Shown piece by piece: positions 12,591-44,550 of a stretch of 64,000 bases of DNA. Numbering within the stretch: position 1 is the first letter of the stretch; each line of letters starts with the position of its first letter. The stretch comes from Elusimicrobiota bacterium (lineage in GTDB: Bacteria; Elusimicrobiota; Elusimicrobia; 2-02-FULL-39-32). The stretch covers positions 1-64,000 of the forward strand of contig JACPBF010000003.1 of assembly GCA_016180425.1 (NCBI GenBank), read 5' to 3'. The notes under the pieces were generated by a model, which made no database searches, was not told where the DNA came from, and worked only from the letters and a program-made list of their open reading frames with translations. The position numbers were made by a program, and so were the translations under genes.

Positions 12591-13019
12591 ATGAAACGCG
12601 AAAAAGTCCCTGAGCAATATTTAAGGGTATTAGATGCGAATTTGAATCGTTGTAGAGAGGGTTTAAGGGTTCTGGAAGATACCGCTCGTTTTGTTTGGCA
12701 GAAAGAGTCCTACTTTTTTCAGTTTCGCGGTCAGAGACACTCTTTAGATCGCATGACAAGAAAATTTTTGCCGCAATTAATCTCTTCCAGGGCAAGCCAA
12801 AGCGATAGGGGTAGAACTGTTAAAGAAGGTAACAGAAAAAAAATTAAAGATTTGGTATGCGCGAATTTTAGGAGGTGTGAGGAGTCTTTAAGAGTTTTGG
12901 AAGAATATGGGAAATTGCTTTCTAAAAAGAGCTCTCCCAAATTTAAAGAAATCCGTTATAGAATCTACGATTTAGAAAAAGATGTCTATCATCTTCATGA
13001 TTTAAAAGAGCCTTCGTAG
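12591..13019 (+). CDS. ThiD2-like protein (stand-alone)
   Basis: The 142-residue protein resembles the ThiD2 domain that, in cyanobacteria and others, is fused to the N-terminus of ThiE and is proposed to phosphorylate hydroxymethylpyrimidine phosphate. It contains two related helices: DANLNRCREGLRVLEDTARF at the start and CANFRRCEESLRVLEEYGKL in the second half, suggesting an internal duplication. Here it is a separate gene 71 bases before thiE, so the two likely work together in thiamine synthesis. The kinase role is from the family, not shown. Confidence 0.75.
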   Translation: MKREKVPEQYLRVLDANLNRCREGLRVLEDTARFVWQKESYFFQFRGQRHSLDRMTRKFLPQLISSRASQSDRGRTVKEGNRKKIKDLVCANFRRCEESLRVLEEYGKLLSKKSSPKFKEIRYRIYDLEKDVYHLHDLKEPS

Positions 13020-13090: not shown

Positions 13091-13768
13091 ATGAAAGATA
13101 CCTTAAGAGAAAAATTAAAGCGCGCGAAACTGTATGCTATTACTGCTCAGCCAAAGCCTGATAAAACTTATTTAGAAATGGTAAAAGCAGCTTTGATGGC
13201 AGGAGTTGAAGTCATTCAGTTAAGAGAAAAACATCTTTCTTCTAAAGAATTTCTTTTTTTAGCCAAATCCTTAAAGGAACTTTGTCATCTTTATGGAGCT
13301 CTTTTTATTGTCAATGACCGTTTAGATTTGGCGCTTGCTTCTGGCGCGGATGGAGTGCATCTGGGGCAGGAGGATTGTCCTTTGCCAGATGCTCTGAGAA
13401 TCGTGAATCAGTTTTATGGAAGTTCCTATTTAAAAAAAGAGATTCCTTTTCTCTTAGGAAGTTCCACCCATTCTTTAGAGCAAGCCTTAAAAGCTGAAGA
13501 AGAAGGCGCGGATTATTTAGGCTGCGGTCCAATTTTTGCCACTCCTACGAAACCGGACCGCGCTGCGATAGGGTTGGAATTAATAAAAGAATATGGGAAA
13601 AGAATTCATATCCCATTTTTCGCTATTGGCGGAATTGACCCAACCAATATAGAGCAGGTTTTAAAAACAGGAGCAAAGGCGATAGCTGTGGTTAGAGCAG
13701 TATTTGCCAGCGAGGATATTCAAGGTTCTGTTCATTCTTTGAAAGAAACCATAGGTCGTTATGCTTAA
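13091..13768 (+). CDS. thiE: Thiamine phosphate synthase
   Basis: ThiE joins the pyrimidine and thiazole halves of thiamine. The TIM-barrel motifs are clear: VIQLREKHLSSKEF, FIVNDRLDLALASGADGVHL, LLGSSTHSLEQA, DYLGCGPIFATPTKPDRAAIG and FFAIGGIDPTNIEQVLKTGA. Length 225 is normal. The last 8 bases overlap thrB. No TPP riboswitch motif (CUGAGA with ACCUGA) was seen upstream. Confidence 0.95.
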   Translation: MKDTLREKLKRAKLYAITAQPKPDKTYLEMVKAALMAGVEVIQLREKHLSSKEFLFLAKSLKELCHLYGALFIVNDRLDLALASGADGVHLGQEDCPLPDALRIVNQFYGSSYLKKEIPFLLGSSTHSLEQALKAEEEGADYLGCGPIFATPTKPDRAAIGLELIKEYGKRIHIPFFAIGGIDPTNIEQVLKTGAKAIAVVRAVFASEDIQGSVHSLKETIGRYA

Positions 13769-14705
13769 AAAGCAAATTAAAGTTAGAGTCCCAGCGACTT
13801 CTGGTAATTTAGGGTCAGGTTTTGACGCATTAGGGATCGCTCTTAATCTTTATAATACGATTGAACTTTTTTGCGAAAAAAAAATAGGTAAGGATCAAAA
13901 TCATAAACATTTATTAACCATTGAAATCAAAGGAGAAGGCAAAGGCTCCTTGCCAGAAGATGAATCCAATGTGGTTTGGCAAGGGATCCAGAAGGTATTG
14001 AAGAAAAAAGGGTTTCCTATTCAATCTTTTTCTTTTTATTTAAAGCTAGAAAATAAAATCCCTTTGGCTAAGGGGTTAGGTTCTAGCGCTGGGGCCCGAG
14101 TAGGCGGAATTTTAGCAGGCAGTGGTTTGCTTAATAATTCTTTAAGTCAAATGGAGATTTTAAATTTAGCTGCTGCCATGGAAGGTCATCCAGACAATGC
14201 GGCGCCAGCAGTGATGGGCGGATTAGTTGCTTCTTGTCTAGTTGAGGGAGAAGTGCAAGCGATAAGGTTAAATCCGCCAAGGGAGCTTTGCGCAGTTGTT
14301 TGTCTTCCGGAATTTGAGCTTTCTACAGAGAAAGCCCGTAAAATTTTGCCTTCACATGTTTCCAGAGAAGATGCGGTTTTTAATCTGCAAAGGACCGCTC
14401 TTTTTTTAGCTTCTTTTTTTACAAAAAATTTTAGCTGTTTAAAAGAAGCGATGCAGGATCGTTTACATCAGAATTATCGGAAAAAATTAATTCCAGGATT
14501 TGATCAGGTGGTTAAGAATGGTTATGATCAAGGCGCATTGGGAGTGGCTCTTTCTGGAGCTGGTCCTTCACTCTTAGCTTTTGCTTATCCTAAAAACGCA
14601 AAAAAAGTAGGAGAAGCAATGGAAAAAGGATTTTTAAAATATGGAAAAAAAGCTTCTAGTTTTATTTTGAATTTTGATTTTAAAGGGGCGCAAAATTTAT
14701 GTTAA
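13761..14705 (+). CDS. thrB: Homoserine kinase (GHMP family)
   Basis: It phosphorylates homoserine in threonine synthesis. [20 protein letters not shown] is the family N-terminus, [16 protein letters not shown] is the ATP loop (GLGSSA), and [11 protein letters not shown] is the C-terminal GHMP motif. Length 314 is usual. It overlaps thiE by 8 bases and lysC by 7, so it is tightly coupled. Homoserine dehydrogenase and threonine synthase are not in the window. Confidence 0.9.
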
Positions 14706-15922
14706 AGCAGGTGGTCATGAAATTTGGCGGCTCTTCTGTAGCGGATGCGGAAAAAATAAAAAAGGTTGCTTCTAGGATTAAAGAGGCTAGAAAGTTAGGA
14801 GATCATGTGGTGGTTGTGGTTTCTGCCCCAGGAGATACCACAGACGATCTTTTGGAAATGGCGCACAAAATTACTGATTCCCCTTCAGAGCGGGAGTTAG
14901 ACATGCTTTTGGCAACAGGGGAACAGGTCTCTATCGCCTTGCTTTCCATGGCGCTTCATTCTTTGAAGACAGATGCGGTTTCTTTGACTGGTCCGCAAGC
15001 AGGCATTTATGCGGATGCGAACCATACTAGAGCGCGGATCACAAAAATATTGCCCACAAAAATTCATTCAGAATTGGCTAAAGGCAAGGTAGTGATTGTG
15101 GCCGGGTTTCAAGGAATGAATCCGAACCAGGATATAACTACTTTAGGCAGGGGCGGGTCAGATTTAACCGCAGTGGCTTTGGCTGCTGCTATCAGCGCGG
15201 ATCGTTGTGAAATTTATACAGATGTAAAAGGGGTTTATACCGCAGATCCTAGAGTTGTGAAGGAAGCAAAAAAATTAGATAGAATTTCTTATGATGAAAT
15301 GTTGGAATTAGCTGGAGCTGGATCTCAAGTGATGCAGGCTCGTTCCATTGAAGTGGCTAAAAAATATAATGTGGAGCTCCATGTTCGTTCCACTTTTTCA
15401 GAGGATGAGGGAACATGGATCGTGAGGGAGGTGAGGGGCATGGAAGATGTGGTGGTTTCAGGCATTGCATTTGACAGGAATCAGGCAAAACTTTCTATTT
15501 TAGAAATTGAAGACCGTCCGGGAGTGGCTGCTAAAATTTTTGGAGCTTTAGCGGATGTCAGGATCAATGTGGACATGATCATTCAGTCCGCAGCCAGTGG
15601 ATTTTCTAATGACATCTCTTTTACAGTGGCGCGCACAGATCTAAAAAAGGCCATGCCCATTTTAGAAAAAGTAAAAGAGGAATTGGGCGCTAAAGATATT
15701 TTATGCGAGGAAAAAGTGGCAAAGGTCGCGATTGTGGGAGTGGGCATGAGGAGCCATCCGGGAGTAGCTGCTAAGATGTTTCAAACTTTAGCAAAAGCAA
15801 AGATTAATATTGAAATGATTTCCACCTCAGAGATTAAAGTGGCTTGCGTGCTGAAAGAAGAAGATTGTGAAAACGCGGTTAAAGTTTTGCACAAGGCTTT
15901 TAATTTAAATTCTAAATCATGA
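14699..15922 (+). CDS. lysC: Aspartate kinase
   Basis: First step of lysine, threonine and methionine synthesis. The kinase domain has [39 protein letters not shown] and [17 protein letters not shown]. Two C-terminal ACT domains (from about residue 265) include [20 protein letters not shown] and [20 protein letters not shown], implying feedback control by lysine and/or threonine. Length 407 fits monofunctional enzymes. It overlaps cimA by 4 bases. Confidence 0.96.
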
Positions 15923-17502
15923 TAGAAAAAAGAGAAGTAAAACTTTTTGATACCACTCTGCGGGATGGATCTCAAGGGGCTGGGGTCTCTTTTTCCGTAG
16001 AAGATAAGCTCAAAATCGCTTTGGCTTTGGATCGGCTGGGCATCCATTACATTGAAGGAGGCTGGCCAGGATCTAATCCTAAAGATGAAGTTTTTTTTAA
16101 ACAAGCAAAAAAACTTAAATTGAAATTTTCTAAATTAACAGCTTTTGGCTCTACTCGCAGAAAAGATAAAACAGCGGAACAAGATCCCAACCTGAAATCT
16201 ATTCTAAAGGTAAAAACTCCTTGCGCTTGTATTTTTGGAAAGTCCTGGGACTTTCAGGTGATCCATGCTTTAAGAGCCTCTTTAGAAGATAATTTAAAGA
16301 TGATTTATGATTCAGTCCGGTATTTAAAATCTAAAGGATTGGAAGTCATTTATGACGCGGAACATTTTTTTGACGGTTTTAGAGCCAATCCAGATTATGC
16401 TTTAGCCACCATCGCTTCTGCAAAAAAAGCAGGCGCTGGCAATATCACTTTATGCGATACTAACGGAGGCTCCATTCCTTCTCAAATCGCAGAGATTGTA
16501 AAAAAAGTTAGAAGTTCTAATCCTAAGCTAGCTTTGGGAGTGCATACCCATAATGATTCTGATTGCGCTGTAGCCAATGCCATTACTGCGGTGGAGGAAG
16601 GCTGCAGTTTAGTTCAGGGAACCATCAACGGTTATGGGGAGAGGTGCGGCAACTCAAACCTTGTTTCCATTATTGCAAATTTAAAGTTAAAACTAGGCAT
16701 ATCCGTCTTGTCAGAGGAACAACTCCAATCTCTAACGGAGATTTCTCGGTATGTTTCTGAAATCGCGAATATTGTGCCAAACGATCATCAGCCTTACGTG
16801 GGTTTTTCCGCTTTTGCGCATAAGGGGGGAGTGCATGTTTCTGCCATGGCCCGGCATATCCAGACTTATGAACATATTGACCCTGCCATTGTGGGCAATA
16901 CGCGTAGAATTTTGATTTCAGAACTTTCTGGCCAAGCGAATGTATTGTTAAAAGCAAAGGAATTAAAATTAGATTTTTCTAAAAATACGAGCTTGGTAAA
17001 ACAGGTGATTGATACCATTAAAAAAATGGAGCATCAAGGGTATCAATTTGAAGGCGCAGAAGCAACCTTTGCGATTTTAGTGCGCAAGGCTTTAAACCAG
17101 CATAAGACTTTTTTTGAGTTAATAGGTTTTAAGGTGAGCGATGAAAAACAAAAAGCAGATGGTAAAGTGGTTTCAAAAGCAGAGCTAAAATTAAGAGTGA
17201 TGGGAGTGTCCCAACATACGGTATCTGAAGGGGACGGCCCGGTGAATGCGTTAGATAATGCGTTAAGAAAAGCTCTGGAAAAATTTTATCCTTCTTTAAA
17301 AACAATGTCCTTAACTGATTTTAAGGTGCGGGTGATCAATGCCCAGGCAGGCACTAAAGCCAAAGTAAGGGTGTATATTGAATCTAGAGATGAAAAGGAT
17401 GAGTGGGGCTGTATTGGGGTTTCGGAAAACATCATTGAAGCTTCTTGGAAAGCTTTGGTGGACTCCATAGAATATAAATTATTAAAAGATGGAGTAGAAT
17501 AA
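15919..17502 (+). CDS. cimA: (R)-citramalate synthase
   Basis: This HMGL-like enzyme condenses pyruvate with acetyl-CoA to citramalate, a threonine-independent route to isoleucine. It has [40 protein letters not shown] and [15 protein letters not shown] (metal His residues in HTHND), plus a C-terminal LeuA-like dimer regulatory domain from about residue 390. Length 527 and sequence style fit the long CimA family rather than LeuA. It sits between lysC and ilv genes, supporting the isoleucine role. Confidence 0.9.
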
Positions 17503-17545: not shown

Positions 17546-19126
17546 ATGGGTAGAAAAAAGAGAAAAGAAAATAAGAAGCAGAAGAATCCTTTACAGCTTA
17601 AAGAGGCTGTACATTCCCGCATTGGGATTATTGGCTGGAATTCTCCTAGATTTTTGGAGTCGCATTCTCAGTTTATGGAAGCATTAAAAACCAATATCGC
17701 CTCTTGCGACCTCGCCCCTGTTTTTTTTGGGATTTCCGGCAGTTTGGATCAGCTTGATTTTGGCCTTTCTAACGGGCAGAAAAAACCTTCTCATGCTTCT
17801 CTTCCTTTATTTTATCATCTCCCATCCAGAGACATGGCAGCAGATCAAATTGAGATGATCGCGTGTGAGGAGCGTTTAGCAGGATTGGTGATGATCCCTT
17901 GGTCCATTAATTCTTTAGTGGGCATGCTTATGGCAACAGTGCGTTCAGGGCTTCCCGCAGTTTTTATGCCCTCTTATTCCAGTTGGAATCGTCTTTATAA
18001 TGCAGGCGCAGCTGCAGAAAATAAGGAGGCTTCATTTTTAGCTCTTCCCTACAGTTCCTGTTCCATGCTTTTACTTTTAGAAGTATTTGGTTTGGCGAAA
18101 ATGGGAAGTTTAGAGAAGATTGTAAAACAGGAATCTTTAGCTCTTTCCGAAGATTTAAACGAAAGCGCTAAATGGTGCGGGCAAAGAATTTTTGAGATGG
18201 TGAAACAAAAAGTTTCTGTTCGAAGATTTTTTTCTGAAGCCTCAATTCATAATGCGATTGCTGTGGACATGGCTTTAGGCGGCAGTTCTGAAACTGTATT
18301 GCATTTGGCAGCCTTGGCTCACGAAGCAGGAGTGCCTTTGCCATTGGCGATTTTTAGTCAATTTGCAAAAGTGCCGCAACTGATTGGCATGGACCGTTCC
18401 GGCAATTTGAGTTTGGCTGAGTTTGAGAAATGCGGAGGTTTAGCGCCTCTTCTTAGCGCTCTTTACAGTTTTTTAAAGCCCAGCCCTACAGTGATGGGAA
18501 AAAATATCGTGGATATCGCCAAAGCAAGCCATGAGATGCGCAGTTCATTTAAAGTGAATAACCCTGTTAAAAAAGTTGGGGGACTTAAAATTCTTTATGG
18601 CTCTTTAGCAAAAGAAGGCGCGCTTTTCAGAGTTTCCGCATTAAAAGAAAATTGGCTTTCTTATTCTGGAAAAGTAAAAGTTTTTAATTCTGAAGCAGCT
18701 TGTATGGAAGCGGTTCTAAATAAAAAGATTAAAAAGGGAGAGATTTTAGCTGTGCGTTATTCTGGGCCTAGAGGAACCCCTGGCATGCCTGCTTTAGAGG
18801 GGTTAAAAGCAGCGCTATCTGCCATGGATTTAGAGGAAGACGTCGCAATTTTAACAGACGGCAGGATGCCTAATTCAGGGAAGACTCCGGTCATTTCTCA
18901 CATTAGTCCGGAAGCGGCTGTGGGCGGCGCATTTTCTATTTTGGAAGATGGGGACACTGTGATTTGGAATTTTTTAGAAGGGACATTAACTGCTCGTTTA
19001 ACAGAAACAGAAATTAAGGTGAGGCTTTCCCGTTGGAAAGCTCAAGGGTCAGAACCAAAGAATAGTTTCCTTCACCGTTATTTAAAACATGTTTCTTCAA
19101 CTGTTCAAGGAGCAAAATTAATTTAG
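17546..19126 (+). CDS. IlvD/Edd-like protein lacking canonical catalytic ligands
   Basis: The overall fold is that of dihydroxy-acid dehydratases: GLPAVFMPSYSSW, GGSSETVLHLAALAHEAGV (residues 245-263), LKILYGSLAKEGA, RYSGPRGTPGMPAL and ILTDGRMPNSGK (435-445) all align by eye. Yet the invariant CDK motif (Fe-S Cys plus Mg ligands) is replaced by PWSIN at 118-122, and the first cluster Cys has no counterpart in WNSPRFLES. Only Cys172 matches the third ligand, in a degraded CPGAGSC motif. The base Ser after TDGR is replaced (MP instead of FS). A lysine-rich tail of ~14 residues starts the protein. It abuts ilvB with no gap. It may be a pseudoenzyme, a scaffold or an enzyme with new chemistry. 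Confidence 0.8.
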   Translation: MGRKKRKENKKQKNPLQLKEAVHSRIGIIGWNSPRFLESHSQFMEALKTNIASCDLAPVFFGISGSLDQLDFGLSNGQKKPSHASLPLFYHLPSRDMAADQIEMIACEERLAGLVMIPWSINSLVGMLMATVRSGLPAVFMPSYSSWNRLYNAGAAAENKEASFLALPYSSCSMLLLLEVFGLAKMGSLEKIVKQESLALSEDLNESAKWCGQRIFEMVKQKVSVRRFFSEASIHNAIAVDMALGGSSETVLHLAALAHEAGVPLPLAIFSQFAKVPQLIGMDRSGNLSLAEFEKCGGLAPLLSALYSFLKPSPTVMGKNIVDIAKASHEMRSSFKVNNPVKKVGGLKILYGSLAKEGALFRVSALKENWLSYSGKVKVFNSEAACMEAVLNKKIKKGEILAVRYSGPRGTPGMPALEGLKAALSAMDLEEDVAILTDGRMPNSGKTPVISHISPEAAVGGAFSILEDGDTVIWNFLEGTLTARLTETEIKVRLSRWKAQGSEPKNSFLHRYLKHVSSTVQGAKLI

Positions 19127-20863
19127 ATGGAAAAAACAGGCGCTGAAATTATTGTAGAGTGTTTGGAAAGAGAGGGAGTGGAGTTCATTTTTGGGATTCC
19201 AGGAGGCTGCAATCTGCCCTTTTTTGACAAGCTTTACGATTCAAAGATAAGACTGATTCTTACTCGTCATGAGCAGGGAGCTTCTCACATGGCAGATGGG
19301 TATGCTCGCTCTACAGGCAAGGTCGGGGTTTGCACAGCTACCTCTGGACCTGGAGCCACTAATCTTGTAACAGGTCTTGCTACCGCTCATATGGACTCCA
19401 TCCCTTTAGTGGCGATTACTGGACAAGTGAGGACGGATGTGATCGGTTCTGACGCTTTCCAAGAAGCGGACGCCATTGGCTGCACGCGTCCTGTGACCAA
19501 ACATAATTATTTAGTAAAAGATGTGAAGGATTTGGCTCATGTGATTCGGGAAGCGTTTTATATCGCTTCTACGGGGCGGCCCGGTCCAGTGCACATTGAT
19601 GTGCCAGTGGATATTCAGCGGGCAAAAATTGAATTTAGTTATCCTGAAAAAATTTCTATTCGCTCTTATTCACCTACGATTAAAGGCCACCCTCTGCAAA
19701 TTAAAAAAGCTTTAGAGCTTATTAAAGCAGCTGAGCGTCCTTTGCTTTATGTGGGAGGGGGAACCATTCTCTCTGGAGCAACCAAAGAATTAAGAACTTT
19801 GGCGGAAAAAGCAAATATCCCGGTAGCCACAACTTTAATGGCTAACGGCGCAATGCCTTTTGACCATCCTCTTTATTTAGGACCTTTAGGAATGCACGGC
19901 AAGTATTCTACTAACACTGCCATGCAAAAATGCGATTTAATGATTTCTTGCGGGGCGCGGTTTGACGATCGAGTGACAGGAAAACTCTCTAGTTTTTCTC
20001 CCCATTCTAAAAAAATTCATTTTGACATTGATCCTGCCAATATTGGCAAAAGCGTGGCTGTGGATGTTCCTGTGGTGGGAGATTTAAAAACTGTTTTAAA
20101 AGAATTAAATGATCAAATGCCGGAGAAAAATCATAAGCTCTGGCTTGAACAAATTAAGGAATGGGAGCAAAAACATCCTTTTAGCTATAAAGAAGATCAG
20201 GGGAAAGATCCTTTTATAAAACCTCAGTACGTGATTCAAGAACTTCATCGTTTGACTAAAGGGGAAGCTATTATTACCACTGGCGTGGGTCAACACCAAA
20301 TGTGGGCCATGCAGTGGTATCCTTGTAAATACCCGCGCCATTTTCTAACTAGCGGCGGGTTAGGCACCATGGGGTATGGGTTTCCCTCCAGCATTGGGGC
20401 CAAGCTCGCTTTTCCTGAAAAGCCTGTGATCTGCATTGACGGCGATGGTTCTTTTCAGATGACCATGAGTGAAATGGCTACAGCGATCCATGAAAAAGTA
20501 AAGGTGATCGTGATTATTTTAAATAATTATTATTTAGGCATGGTGCGTCAATGGCAAGAGCTTTTTTATAAGGAACGTTTTTCCGCTTCCTGCTTAACAG
20601 CGCAGGGAGGCCGCCGCACAAAAGAGAATGAGCCGGATCCAAGATCTTTAAAGTATATTCCTGACTTTGTTAAGTTTGCGGAAGCTTATGGCGCTTTGGG
20701 CTTGCGGTTAACTCATAAGGAAGAGGTGGAAGGGGCGCTAAAGCAGGCGCTGGATTCAAAAGTTCCTGTAATTTTGGATGTGATCATCCATCCAGAAGAA
20801 AAGGTGTTCCCCATGGTTCCAGCCGGGGCAGGGTTGGACGACATTATTGTAGATATGGCTTGA
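19127..20863 (+). CDS. ilvB: Acetolactate synthase, large subunit
   Basis: This ThDP enzyme makes acetolactate or acetohydroxybutyrate. GIPGGCNLPFFDKLY, the catalytic Glu in LTRHEQGASHMADGYARS, GPGATNLVTGLATA, and the ThDP motif GDGSFQMTMSEMATAI with NNYYLG are seen. Length 578 is normal. The ATG follows directly after the stop of the IlvD-like gene, so translation is probably linked. The regulatory subunit ilvH follows. Confidence 0.96.
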   Translation: MEKTGAEIIVECLEREGVEFIFGIPGGCNLPFFDKLYDSKIRLILTRHEQGASHMADGYARSTGKVGVCTATSGPGATNLVTGLATAHMDSIPLVAITGQVRTDVIGSDAFQEADAIGCTRPVTKHNYLVKDVKDLAHVIREAFYIASTGRPGPVHIDVPVDIQRAKIEFSYPEKISIRSYSPTIKGHPLQIKKALELIKAAERPLLYVGGGTILSGATKELRTLAEKANIPVATTLMANGAMPFDHPLYLGPLGMHGKYSTNTAMQKCDLMISCGARFDDRVTGKLSSFSPHSKKIHFDIDPANIGKSVAVDVPVVGDLKTVLKELNDQMPEKNHKLWLEQIKEWEQKHPFSYKEDQGKDPFIKPQYVIQELHRLTKGEAIITTGVGQHQMWAMQWYPCKYPRHFLTSGGLGTMGYGFPSSIGAKLAFPEKPVICIDGDGSFQMTMSEMATAIHEKVKVIVIILNNYYLGMVRQWQELFYKERFSASCLTAQGGRRTKENEPDPRSLKYIPDFVKFAEAYGALGLRLTHKEEVEGALKQALDSKVPVILDVIIHPEEKVFPMVPAGAGLDDIIVDMA

Positions 20864-20932
20864 AACCAAATCTACTGATTCCATGATTGCTTAAAAATGG
20901 AATCGGAGATTTTTGTAAAGGCAGGGTTATTA

Positions 20933-21445
20933 ATGAAAGATAAAAGTTTTGAACCTAAGCACACTATTTCCATTTTAGTGGAAAATAAAGCGGGCGTACT
21001 AGCCAGAATTTCTGGTCTATTTTCCGCGCGCGGTTTTAATATTGATTCTTTAGCTGTGGGAGAAACAGACGACCCTACAGTTTCGCGGATGACCATTGTG
21101 GTTAAAGGGGATGAAAAAATTCTGGAGCAGGTTGAAAAACAGTTAAACAAATTAGTGGATGTGATCAAACTAGGGGACTATATCGAGACCCCGCATTTAG
21201 AAAGAGATTTAGCTTTGATTAAAGTAAAAGCGGATAAGAATGATCGTTCTGAACTTTTGCAAATCGTAGATATTTTTAGGGCAAAAATCGTGGATGTGGC
21301 GGACCATTCTGTGATTATTGAAGTGACAGGAGATGAAAATAAGATCGAAGCCTTGATTCGCATGCTTGGATCTTTTGGAATTTTAGAGATGAGCCGAACA
21401 GGAATTGTGGCTATGGCGCGCGGCAATAAGTCATTGACTATTTAG
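20933..21445 (+). CDS. ilvH: Acetolactate synthase, small (regulatory) subunit
   Basis: An ACT-domain protein that activates IlvB and confers valine feedback. HTISILVENKAGVLARISGL and FSARGFNIDSLAVGETDDP mark the ACT domain, followed by the C-terminal ALS_ss_C domain. The ATG at 20933 gives the usual ~170 residues and has a GCAGGG-like ribosome site. An in-frame ATG at 20897 would add 12 residues and has no Shine-Dalgarno sequence. Confidence 0.93.
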   Translation: MKDKSFEPKHTISILVENKAGVLARISGLFSARGFNIDSLAVGETDDPTVSRMTIVVKGDEKILEQVEKQLNKLVDVIKLGDYIETPHLERDLALIKVKADKNDRSELLQIVDIFRAKIVDVADHSVIIEVTGDENKIEALIRMLGSFGILEMSRTGIVAMARGNKSLTI

Positions 21446-21524: not shown

Positions 21525-22538
21525 ATGGCAAAACATTATTCAGAGAAAAATGCGGATCTAAAATTTTTGAAAGGGAAAAAAATTGTTATTTTAGGTTATG
21601 GATCACAAGGGCATGGCCAGGCTCTTAATTTACGAGACAGCGGATTGAACGTCATGGTTTCAGTGCGTAAAGGCGGCCGGGGTTATAATCTGGCTTTGAA
21701 ACATGGCTGGCAGGAAGGAAAAAATCTTTTTACAAATAATAAAGAAGCGGTGAAGGGAGCGGATTGGGTCCATTTTCTTCTGCCAGATGAAACCCAAAAA
21801 GAGGTTTGGGAAAATGATGTTCTGCCAAATTTTAAAAAAGGAGCTGTCTTGGGCTTTTCTCATGGATTCAATATTCGGTTTAGTCAGATTGTTCCTCCCA
21901 AAGAAGCGGATGTGATTTTAGTCGCGCCTAAAGGGCCGGGACATTTGGTGCGAAGAACTTATGAAGAAGGTAAAGGCACCCCAGCCCTGATAGCTATAGA
22001 ACAAAATTATTCTAAAAAGGCTTTGCAGTTGGCTCTTGCTTATTCCAAAGGCATTGGGGCTACCCGAGCAGGAGTGATTGAAACTACTTTTTCTGAGGAA
22101 ACAGAAACCGATAATTTTGGAGAACAGTGCGTGCTTTGCGGAGGCGTGGTTGACTTGATTAAAGCAGGTTTTGAAACTTTGGTGGAAGCTGGTTATCAAC
22201 CAGAAATCGCTTATTTTGAGTGTTTGCATGAACTAAAATTGATTACAGATTTGATTCAAGAAGGCGGAATCTCTTGGATGAACTATTCTATCTCAGACAC
22301 TGCTGAATATGGGGAATATAGCCGGGGCCCGCGTTTAGTGAATGAAAAGACAAAAGAGGAAATGAGGAAAATTTTAGGTGAAATTCGTTCGGGTCAGTTT
22401 GCCAAAGAATATCTGCTGGAAAATAAAGTAGGCCGACCGGTATTCAATTCTTCCAGAAAAAATTTAGAGAATCATCCCATTGAAAAAGTGGGAGCTGAGT
22501 TAAGAGCCATGATGCCCTGGCTTAAAAAAAAGGAATAG
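21525..22538 (+). CDS. ilvC: Ketol-acid reductoisomerase (class I)
   Basis: It rearranges and reduces acetolactate to dihydroxyisovalerate. The Rossmann motif is [20 protein letters not shown]; the loop SVRKGGRG would bind NADPH phosphate through its basic residues (inferred). The knotted domain has [20 protein letters not shown] and [20 protein letters not shown]. Length 337 is class I. A GAGGAGA Shine-Dalgarno sequence precedes the ATG. The gap to secY is only 6 bases. Confidence 0.97.
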
Positions 22539-42523: not shown

Positions 42524-43792
42524 ATGAAGTTAGGACGGATTTATAAGAGGAGTGAAAAGATTAGCAAACTCCAATTACATAAACGAATCAGTTGGAGGAC
42601 AGTATGGCAAATTGTGCAAGCCTTTGTAAGCCGACAAATGAGTGAGAAGATGGCCTGCCAATCTCTAGAGATTTCCCGAGCTCGGTTATATGTCCTGCGA
42701 CAAAAGTGGCTCAAAGTCCCTCGGGCAGATCAGGTGACTCCCCAGTGGCTGTATCAGAAGTCGAACAGTCTTCGTCTGTCTTCACGAGTTTGCCATTACT
42801 TAGAAGAGGAGATTCGCTATATTAAAACAGACTCGGAATATTTTAAGAATCATTTCAATTTTGCTTTTCTAGCTCAACAATGCCATCAGAGGTTTGGAAA
42901 ACGTTTGCGTAGAAATACTCTGCGCCGCTGGGCTATCCGGGAAGGACTCTATCATCCTGAGCAGGACTCCACAAGTAAAGCGTATGTGCGCTTTGAGATG
43001 GGGGCGATTGGTTTACTTTGGCAACACGATAGCTCTCATCACGGTTGGCTCCCCCTGACTCGCCGTAACGATGTATTGATTCTGACCAAAGATGATCATT
43101 CTAGAAAAGTCGTTGGAGGTCTATTAGTTCCCAGAGACACCTCCTGGCATCATCTGTGTGTGGTCAGAGAAAGCATAGAAACCTATGGGTGTCCTGTAGC
43201 CTACTATCTGGATAACTTTAGTATCTTTCGTCCTAAGACAGAGCCTCAGACTCAATTTTCTCGGGCATTATCTACTGCGGAGATCAATTTGAAGTTTACC
43301 GCTAAAGCTCATCCCGAAGCAAAAGGCAAGATAGAAAAACAATTTGATTATTTCCAAAGGCGGATCCCTTATTTGTGCGAACGGTATCGGATCACTAGCC
43401 TAAAAGAAGCGAATAAAATTCTTCGAGATGAGATCCATTATTACAATGATTCCCACATTCATGCGGAAACAGGAGAAATCCCAAACAAACGTTGGAATAA
43501 AGCACTCCTGGAAAAAAGATCTTTCCTTAAGCCAATTCCACAGGGAGTTTCTCTGGATATCGCTTTTTCTCTACACTATCCCAGGGCGGTCAGGGGAGAT
43601 GGTACAATCTCTTTTGCAGGAAAATTCTGGAAAGTACCAAACGCTCCTCGCTATCAGAAAGTGACTATTGCTTTAAAACCACCCACTTCGTCTCGAAGAC
43701 CTCTTACGGAAATTTTTATCCTTCACAAAGGTTCAACTCTTGCTCACTTCGTCCTTACTAAAGGAGAATCTCTGCAAGAACCATTGAATTAG
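42524..43792 (+). CDS. DDE transposase, integrase-core (rve) type
   Basis: 422 residues: an N-terminal HTH region (residues ~20-65) and an integrase core with probable catalytic Asp169 (LLWQHDSSHHGW), Asp230 (AYYLDNFSIF) and Glu271 (HPEAKGKIEKQF). A C-terminal beta-rich segment follows. GAGGAGG precedes the ATG. The frame is full length, so the enzyme may be active. The IS family is not certain; it is nearest in style to IS481/ISNCY-like elements. Confidence 0.85.
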   Translation: MKLGRIYKRSEKISKLQLHKRISWRTVWQIVQAFVSRQMSEKMACQSLEISRARLYVLRQKWLKVPRADQVTPQWLYQKSNSLRLSSRVCHYLEEEIRYIKTDSEYFKNHFNFAFLAQQCHQRFGKRLRRNTLRRWAIREGLYHPEQDSTSKAYVRFEMGAIGLLWQHDSSHHGWLPLTRRNDVLILTKDDHSRKVVGGLLVPRDTSWHHLCVVRESIETYGCPVAYYLDNFSIFRPKTEPQTQFSRALSTAEINLKFTAKAHPEAKGKIEKQFDYFQRRIPYLCERYRITSLKEANKILRDEIHYYNDSHIHAETGEIPNKRWNKALLEKRSFLKPIPQGVSLDIAFSLHYPRAVRGDGTISFAGKFWKVPNAPRYQKVTIALKPPTSSRRPLTEIFILHKGSTLAHFVLTKGESLQEPLN

Positions 43793-43945: not shown

Positions 43946-44344
43946 TCAAGAAAGATAAATATCGCGGATAGAACCAAATGGAAGCACAAGAGTTGAAAGC
44001 CAAGTTTCCACATCTTTAGGTGTAGATTGTTTAAAGTCAGGAGTGGTATGAACCGCATTGGGCGCGATTGAGATTTTGTCTGGGACCGCAAAGCCAAGGT
44101 GTTGAGCTTGCGGCACTTGCGCTAAGAGCTGGTATTCTTCTTGGGTGAGTTTAGAAGGTAACTGAGCAGGAATTTGAGGTTGTTCTAAGGTTTCCTCATT
44201 GTTCAATCTTTGCGCTGCTTTTCTGCGTTCTTCCCAAATGCTTGCTTCTGCTAAGTGAACAGCAATGACATTCGAATAAAAAAATACAATGGAAAGAAAA
44301 AGACAAAAGCTTGGTTTTATTTTTTTATGCATAAATTTTGGCAT
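43946..44344 (-). pseudogene. Secreted protein gene truncated by the IS
   Basis: The start encodes a signal peptide (PSFCLFLSIVFFYSNVIAVH, cut probably after AEA), then a helical, Gln/Glu-rich segment and LSTLVLPFGSIRDIYLS. The TGA stop lies in the right inverted repeat of the IS, so the native C-terminus is gone. DNA left of the IS does not continue it convincingly, implying loss of flanking sequence. The GSIRDIY motif reminds me of a family of large secreted proteins in Omnitrophota, but that is memory-based and unsure. A cyclic-di-GMP riboswitch and terminator precede it. Confidence 0.65.
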
Positions 44345-44430: not shown

Positions 44431-44550
44431 CTTCGGCAGTCTGGCGATCCTATAAAAAAAGTCCTTTAGCAATACTTTAGGACTACTCTTACAGGATCCA
44501 TGACTTTGCGTCCCCTGATTACTCAGGCTTTGCCCTTATCGTCCTATAGG
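44431..44550 (-). ncRNA. Cyclic di-GMP-I (GEMM) riboswitch aptamer
   Basis: The minus-strand RNA has the GEMM landmarks in order: AUAAGGGCAAAGCC (complement of 44526-44539), GGGACGCAAAG (44504-44514), a variable stem (GGAUCCUGUA pairing with UAUAGGAUC) containing an extra hairpin (AGUCCU ... AGGACU), and the 3' part GAUCGCCAGACUGCCGAAG ending at 44431. The G in the middle of AGGGCAAA corresponds to the guanine-contacting position of c-di-GMP-specific members. Downstream are a GGGAATATTCCC palindrome and a terminator. Confidence 0.82.

Follow-up and report, generated by a model that had tools for sequence, protein, structure and literature searches.

The 64,000-nucleotide stretch of Elusimicrobiota DNA analyzed here (the window) carries a gene run in the order accBC-rfaE2-thiE-thrB-lysC-cimA-X-ilvB-ilvN-ilvC-secY-adk-map-ribosomal genes. 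X denotes a gene of the IlvD/Edd fold between cimA and ilvB, that is, in the slot of the dihydroxy-acid dehydratase (DHAD), where an earlier note on this DNA had placed it with coordinates that agree with ours. The genes and the segments of X are as follows.

13761..15922, plus strand: thrB and lysC, 5' genes of the same run as cimA and X.
15919..17502, plus strand: cimA, of the citramalate/2-isopropylmalate synthase type, named by translation and homology; 5' neighbor of X.
17546..19126, plus strand: X, an IlvD/Edd-fold gene without ligands (526 aa), a putative pseudoenzyme gene.
17816..17869, plus strand: helix 91-108 of X (SRDMAADQIE), predicted counterpart of the central helix of the IlvD/EDD dimer interface, by analogy with PMC5770437.
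17897..17914, plus strand: codons P118-W-S-I-N-S123, which in the alignment replace T-N-C-D-K-I (Cys ligand, Mg-Asp, and carbamyl-Lys).
18029..18064, plus strand: codons 162-173 (A-S-F-L-A-L-P-Y-S-S-C-S), aligned to the third-Cys segment GSCQGLYTANT, with Leu165 at the ligand Cys.
18761..18763, plus strand: codon Ser406, which replaces the Mg-ligand Glu (RYEGP).
18854..18880, plus strand: TDGR-MPNSG (437-445), with TDGR retained and the catalytic Ser loop FSGGT gone.
19127..20863, plus strand: ilvB, acetolactate synthase large subunit; 3' neighbor of X.
20897..21445, plus strand: ilvN, acetolactate synthase small subunit.
21525..22538, plus strand: ilvC, ketol-acid reductoisomerase.

The stop codon of X abuts the start codon of ilvB (TAG-ATG, with the ATG at 19127), and a GGAG-like site lies within the 3' end of X, ahead of ilvB. 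The zero gap to ilvB, to which the earlier note had drawn attention, holds in the window, but across relatives the spacing ranges from 0 to about 400 nt. X is probably coexpressed with the operon. In the same run, a 142-aa protein is encoded directly 5' of thiE (12591-13019 and 13091-13768, respectively); it is a separate gene in several relatives, and the 342-aa thiE ORF of locus L037 suggests a fusion with it there. Elsewhere in the window, a c-di-GMP-I riboswitch (44432-44544, minus strand; Rfam RF01051, 57 bits) lies 5' of a short secreted-type ORF (43946-44344, 132 aa), which is similar to the beginning of a 1651-aa protein in locus L044 and may be truncated by a transposase-like gene (42524-43792).

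X belongs to the IlvD/Edd superfamily, as indicated by its matches to Pfam PF00920 (118.4 bits; cut-off, 27) and PF24877 (168.8 bits; cut-off, 27.7), although its best stretch in the N-terminal domain match is the distal half alone (residues 171-321), and its score against the NCBIfam ilvD equivalog TIGR00110 is 292.2 bits, below the cut-off of 618.15. An AlphaFold2 model (pLDDT, 84.1; pTM, 0.86) gave a confident two-domain DHAD fold, with pLDDT values of <50 limited to the N-terminal tail (1-21) and loops 71-87 and 152-162. The best PDB matches of the model were DHADs, with Synechocystis 6nte at the top (TM, 0.80/0.87), and the 25 matches at E values of ≤0.001 were IlvD/EDD chains only. From the conserved helix 91-108 only, X may be expected by analogy to form a dimer. 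Intact enzymes have an N-terminal recognition helix that reaches the active site of the partner (PMC5770437, PMC11316719), and the motif of this helix is largely gone at the N terminus of X. At the same place (window 17546-17600), X of the window and of a same-genus relative has a lysine-rich tail, MGRKKRKENKKQKN, in which residues 1-25 include 10 K/R; some X proteins lack this basic tail.

Residues were compared by aligning X with 19 intact IlvDs from Elusimicrobiota and Desantisbacteria. Their roles in the superfamily are known from crystal structures and mutagenesis (PMC5770437, PMC9314677); the CDK motif (PROSITE motif 1) provides a Cys ligand, the Mg-binding Asp, and the carbamylated Lys (PMC5770437). 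The conserved N-C-D-K (118-121) corresponds to W-S-I-N (119-122) in X, with Cys119 replaced by Ser, Asp120 by Ile, and Lys121 by Asn. S-I-N thus stands at 120-122 in place of CDK, and among the X proteins with a residue there, C119 and D120 were present in 0/11 and K121 in 1/11. The third ligand, Cys192, is Leu165 in X, Thr197 is Ser, and none of the X proteins has the cluster Cys of the GSC(Q/G)G segment. Furthermore, the Mg ligand Glu429 is replaced by Ser406 and the base Ser465 by Pro442, SGGT (465-468) having become PNSG; the catalytic Ser after TDGR-[FL] (PROSITE motif 2) was found in only 1 of 13 X proteins. Retained are the Mg-ligand Asp78 (Asp68 in X numbering), the Arg of TDGR (Arg440), and R404.

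The alignment bears out what the earlier note had read from the letters, i.e., PWSIN in the place of CDK, MP instead of FS after TDGR, and the retention of GGSSETVLHL and TDGR. Its statement that X lacks most Fe-S ligands was right as to the loss and too cautious as to the extent, all ligands being gone. The first Cys is absent as it had said, but this is not a diagnostic sign, as E. coli-type DHADs likewise lack it (PGH, not PCN, in the alignment); this Cys is conserved in one subfamily only (PMC5770437). Displacement of the ligands elsewhere in X is contradicted by the alignment, in which C172 pairs with the N of TAN and not with the ligand Cys. A sequencing or frame error is excluded because the ligand-free state recurs in many independent assemblies.

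The genome of the window (2.6 Mb, 98% complete) encodes one further IlvD, of 560 aa, on contig C18 (G000:C18; L001 883-2562), which is not adjacent to ilv genes and is about 29% identical to X. Its motifs are all intact (PCN, GGCDKNM, GSCGG, RYEGP, and TDGRFSGG), its score of 769.5 bits is above the ilvD equivalog cut-off of 618, and its GCDKNM motif points to a [2Fe-2S]-type DHAD (PMC9314677). A leuC gene was also found in this genome. Since this full-length canonical ilvD, for which a search had been recommended, is present in the same genome, the DHAD step appears to be covered without X, the unlinked dehydratase doing the chemistry. With the C18 protein above the cut-off and X below it, this fits the earlier suggestion that another dehydratase supplies the pathway and that X is a noncatalytic paralogue. 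A second kind of unlinked IlvD, with GEGxHMIPA, PGH, and NCDKIVP, occurs in genomes G032 (L025 733-2487) and G039 (L036 712-2451); it scores above the ilvD cut-off and clusters close to E. coli IlvD, and G039 has both kinds.

Using the X profile, we found an IlvD-like protein in 20 of 235 genomes of the class Elusimicrobia, with no match in the others. X was present in 15 of these 20, distributed over four families (8 genomes in the window's family, f1; 4 in f4; 2 in f6; and 1 in f12). All 15 have X directly 5' of ilvB and a CDK-type IlvD elsewhere, unlinked, and cimA lies 5' of X in 12/12 genomes whose contig reaches far enough. X was not found in G007 (73% complete), G012, G013, G039, and G217. 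Because the last four have an intact ilvD and no X, X is dispensable in some lineages. In G012 and G039, neither cimA nor X was found beside the usual ilvB within the sequence stretch examined; the best ilvB of G013 and of G217 belongs to a different type. The unlinked IlvD of G011 (L035 717-2478) is frame-split, probably by an assembly error, because cimA (L048 144-1677) is split in the same assembly, probably likewise in error.

Among other Elusimicrobiota lineages, the majority of genomes giving a match have a single IlvD. The 18 IlvDs of the operon slot from these lineages (L083-L100; slot IlvDs) all have NCDK and FSGG, with a cimA-like gene adjacent in all and ilvB on the opposite side in most. 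The proteins of L005 and L006 (Endomicrobia and Desantisbacteria), considered as further odd IlvDs, are intact E. coli-type enzymes. Ligand-free IlvDs may exist in other phyla, which were covered by one pattern scan of limited sensitivity.

In an IQ-TREE phylogeny of 49 proteins, all X proteins formed one clade (99/99) adjoining the slot IlvDs, and when E. coli Edd, with its very long branch, was left out, X and the slot IlvDs were on one side of a 100/99 branch; the X branches are long, and long-branch effects call for caution in reading the tree. The ligand-free form is hence a clade with conserved operon context, always before ilvB, a point on which the earlier note had proposed a check. 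A tree constraining X together with the unlinked IlvDs was rejected (p-AU, 1.7e-55), and with it X as a recent duplicate of the unlinked ilvD. Synteny independently agrees with the tree, cimA-X-ilvB corresponding to cimA-intact ilvD-ilvB in other classes. Since the slot enzymes are intact elsewhere and the tree joins X to the slot, X is, on sequence evidence, a descendant of the ancestral operon DHAD whose catalysis was emptied. Nearly all X proteins lack CDK, Cys192, and the Ser loop, whereas Glu429 is retained in those of f6 and f12 and Asp78 in those of f1 and f4. This suggests a common first loss of catalytic residues, with later losses occurring separately. The unlinked DHADs occupy two separate regions of the tree, so that at least two kinds of DHAD would act as catalysts beside X, and the unlinked enzyme was probably the later supplier, taking over before catalysis was lost.

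Selection was assessed from the dN/dS ratio between the window genome and a same-genus relative. X showed 30.5 changes at 1226 nonsynonymous sites and 49.5 at 352 synonymous sites (dN/dS, 0.162), and neutral evolution was rejected (p=1.4e-14). The ratio was 0.066 in cimA, 0.026 in ilvB, 0.045 in ilvC, and 0.059 in the unlinked ilvD; thiE, thrB, and adk gave values of 0.2-0.28. Selection on X is more relaxed than that on ilvB, ilvC, secY, cimA, and the unlinked ilvD. Because its ratio exceeds those of cimA, ilvB, and ilvC, the constraint on X is moderate, and X evolves faster than these genes. The low dN/dS, the rejected neutrality, and the confident DHAD fold model speak against a decaying pseudogene. 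X thus combines lost catalytic residues with purifying selection, as would be expected of a pseudoenzyme subunit of the pDHO or HisZ kind.

Over 18 first-shell positions selected by us, the mean entropy was 0.03 in the slot IlvDs (rest, 0.75), 1.13 in f1 X proteins (rest, 1.00; not significant), and 1.60 in f4, f6, and f12 X proteins (rest, 1.13; p=0.007), where these sites vary more than the others. The pocket is freed of constraint, and the rest of the fold is retained. X keeps 51% of slot-conserved residues in the C-terminal domain and 38% in the N-terminal domain; helix 91-108 (54% retained) ranks with the better-preserved parts of the N-terminal third, and helix 487-496 near the C terminus is among the least variable. 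The replacements at the CDK site, Cys192, and the base loop vary between X subgroups (WSIN, DSHK, EQND, and DRSE), and P-W-S is fixed in the former CDK loop of f1 X proteins, which could reflect packing or a new site.

We propose, with a probability of about 0.6, that X is a pseudo-dihydroxy-acid dehydratase, i.e., an emptied, noncatalytic slot DHAD working by protein-protein contact with a co-encoded enzyme. The original ilvD of a cimA-ilvD-ilvB-ilvN-ilvC operon in Elusimicrobiota would be the ancestor of X. In the class Elusimicrobia, an unlinked intact IlvD would have taken over the reaction, after which X would have lost its Fe-S and Mg ligands and the catalytic Ser. Keeping its two-domain fold and coproduced with CimA, IlvB, IlvN, and IlvC, it would serve as an assembly or stabilizing subunit, possibly a regulatory one, of a co-encoded enzyme. 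Acetolactate synthase or CimA seems a likelier partner than the unlinked DHAD because X tracks cimA-ilvB and occurs alongside unlinked DHADs of various kinds; the naming of these two is nevertheless tentative. That the operon DHAD turned into a noncatalytic subunit of acetolactate synthase or CimA, in a hybrid complex of branched-chain amino-acid synthesis new among bacteria, is rather doubtful. A prozyme completing the active site of a DHAD is unlikely: with most of the recognition-helix motif gone, X could probably not complete the site of a partner, and there are several kinds of unlinked DHAD, some in genomes without X.

X might instead be a regulator of the operon or of acetolactate synthase, acting by binding to the operon's nucleic acid or to a metabolite of the pathway, such as dihydroxyisovalerate or one of the branched-chain 2-oxo acids. 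This is conceivable from its operon position, its retained fold with R404 and TDGR, and the precedent of HisZ, a paralogue that acts as a regulatory subunit (PMC9734150), and the basic tail in the window X and its same-genus relative would suit contact with nucleic acid. However, that tail is not in all X proteins, Pfam reveals no known DNA/RNA-binding domain in X, the surroundings of the operon yielded no known riboswitch or leader, and the former pocket shows no extra conservation; we regard a regulator as unlikely. The former pocket also bears on whether X uses the same cavity for another reaction, one that needs no cluster. Purifying selection on a full-length fold, the fixed P-W-S loop in the window's family, and a few persisting Mg-side residues (Asp68 and Arg440) would be compatible with a new enzyme, but the chemistry of the superfamily rests on the cluster, Mg, and Ser (PMC5770437, PMC9314677), and what stands in for CDK, Cys192, and the base loop varies from one subgroup to another. 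The former pocket has lost its conservation across X proteins, in f4, f6, and f12 even falling below the rest; this disfavors the different chemistry offered by the earlier note, a reading that seems improbable to us.

We give equally little credence to X as a functionless relic that persists because its disruption would harm the translation or transcription of ilvB. The TAG-ATG junction, the GGAG-like site inside the end of X, and its faster evolution than its neighbors would accord with a relic, but the junction spacing varies, the dN/dS of 0.16 departs from neutrality, and fold-defining residues are retained across four families. Moreover, neither of the two split copies of X is a true gene fission: the break in G008 coincides with an N-gap, and that in G032, a contaminated MAG, with an indel in a run of G.

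DHAD is an essential Fe-S enzyme and a target of herbicides and antifungals. Emptied biosynthetic enzymes are known (pDHO and HisZ), and in open-access papers we found no published ligand-free IlvD and no such report for DHAD. The case of X is clean: the slot is the same, its enzyme is intact in sister classes and emptied in one class, and X is still selected, the chemistry having apparently passed to unlinked enzymes of at least two lineages. The putative pseudo-DHAD is a testable system for the change of an enzyme into a structural or regulatory protein, and annotation by fold or operon position would miscall it as ilvD.

The nearest clade to X, the slot IlvDs of other Elusimicrobiota (e.g., L083 1441-3087), shares its fold and its place between cimA and ilvB; these enzymes, of E. 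coli type and [4Fe-4S]-like by motif, have NCDK, GSCQG, RYEGP, and FSGG, whereas X lacks the cluster ligands and the base. The unlinked C18 IlvD is of the same superfamily but, unlike X, has intact PCN, GCDKNM, GSCGG, and FSGG and lies outside the ilv operon and on another branch of the tree. AstD of Aspergillus terreus (PDB 9ix7), a structural match to X, is likewise a second copy of the DHAD fold beside a housekeeping enzyme; however, it is fungal, and its active site is not emptied, AstD being a self-resistance version of DHAD that keeps catalysis. HisZ is derived from histidyl-tRNA synthetase. It is the regulatory subunit of the short-form ATP phosphoribosyltransferase (PMC9734150) and so, like X, a repurposed paralogue in an amino-acid pathway; its partner and allostery are demonstrated, whereas the partner of X is proposed. 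pDHO is an inactive dihydroorotase chain required for the ATCase of Pseudomonas aeruginosa (PMC7053772). Although it is unrelated to X in fold and pathway, and its partner is known whereas that of X is proposed, pDHO is an inactive homologue of a biosynthetic enzyme that became a necessary structural subunit of another pathway enzyme, as we propose for X.
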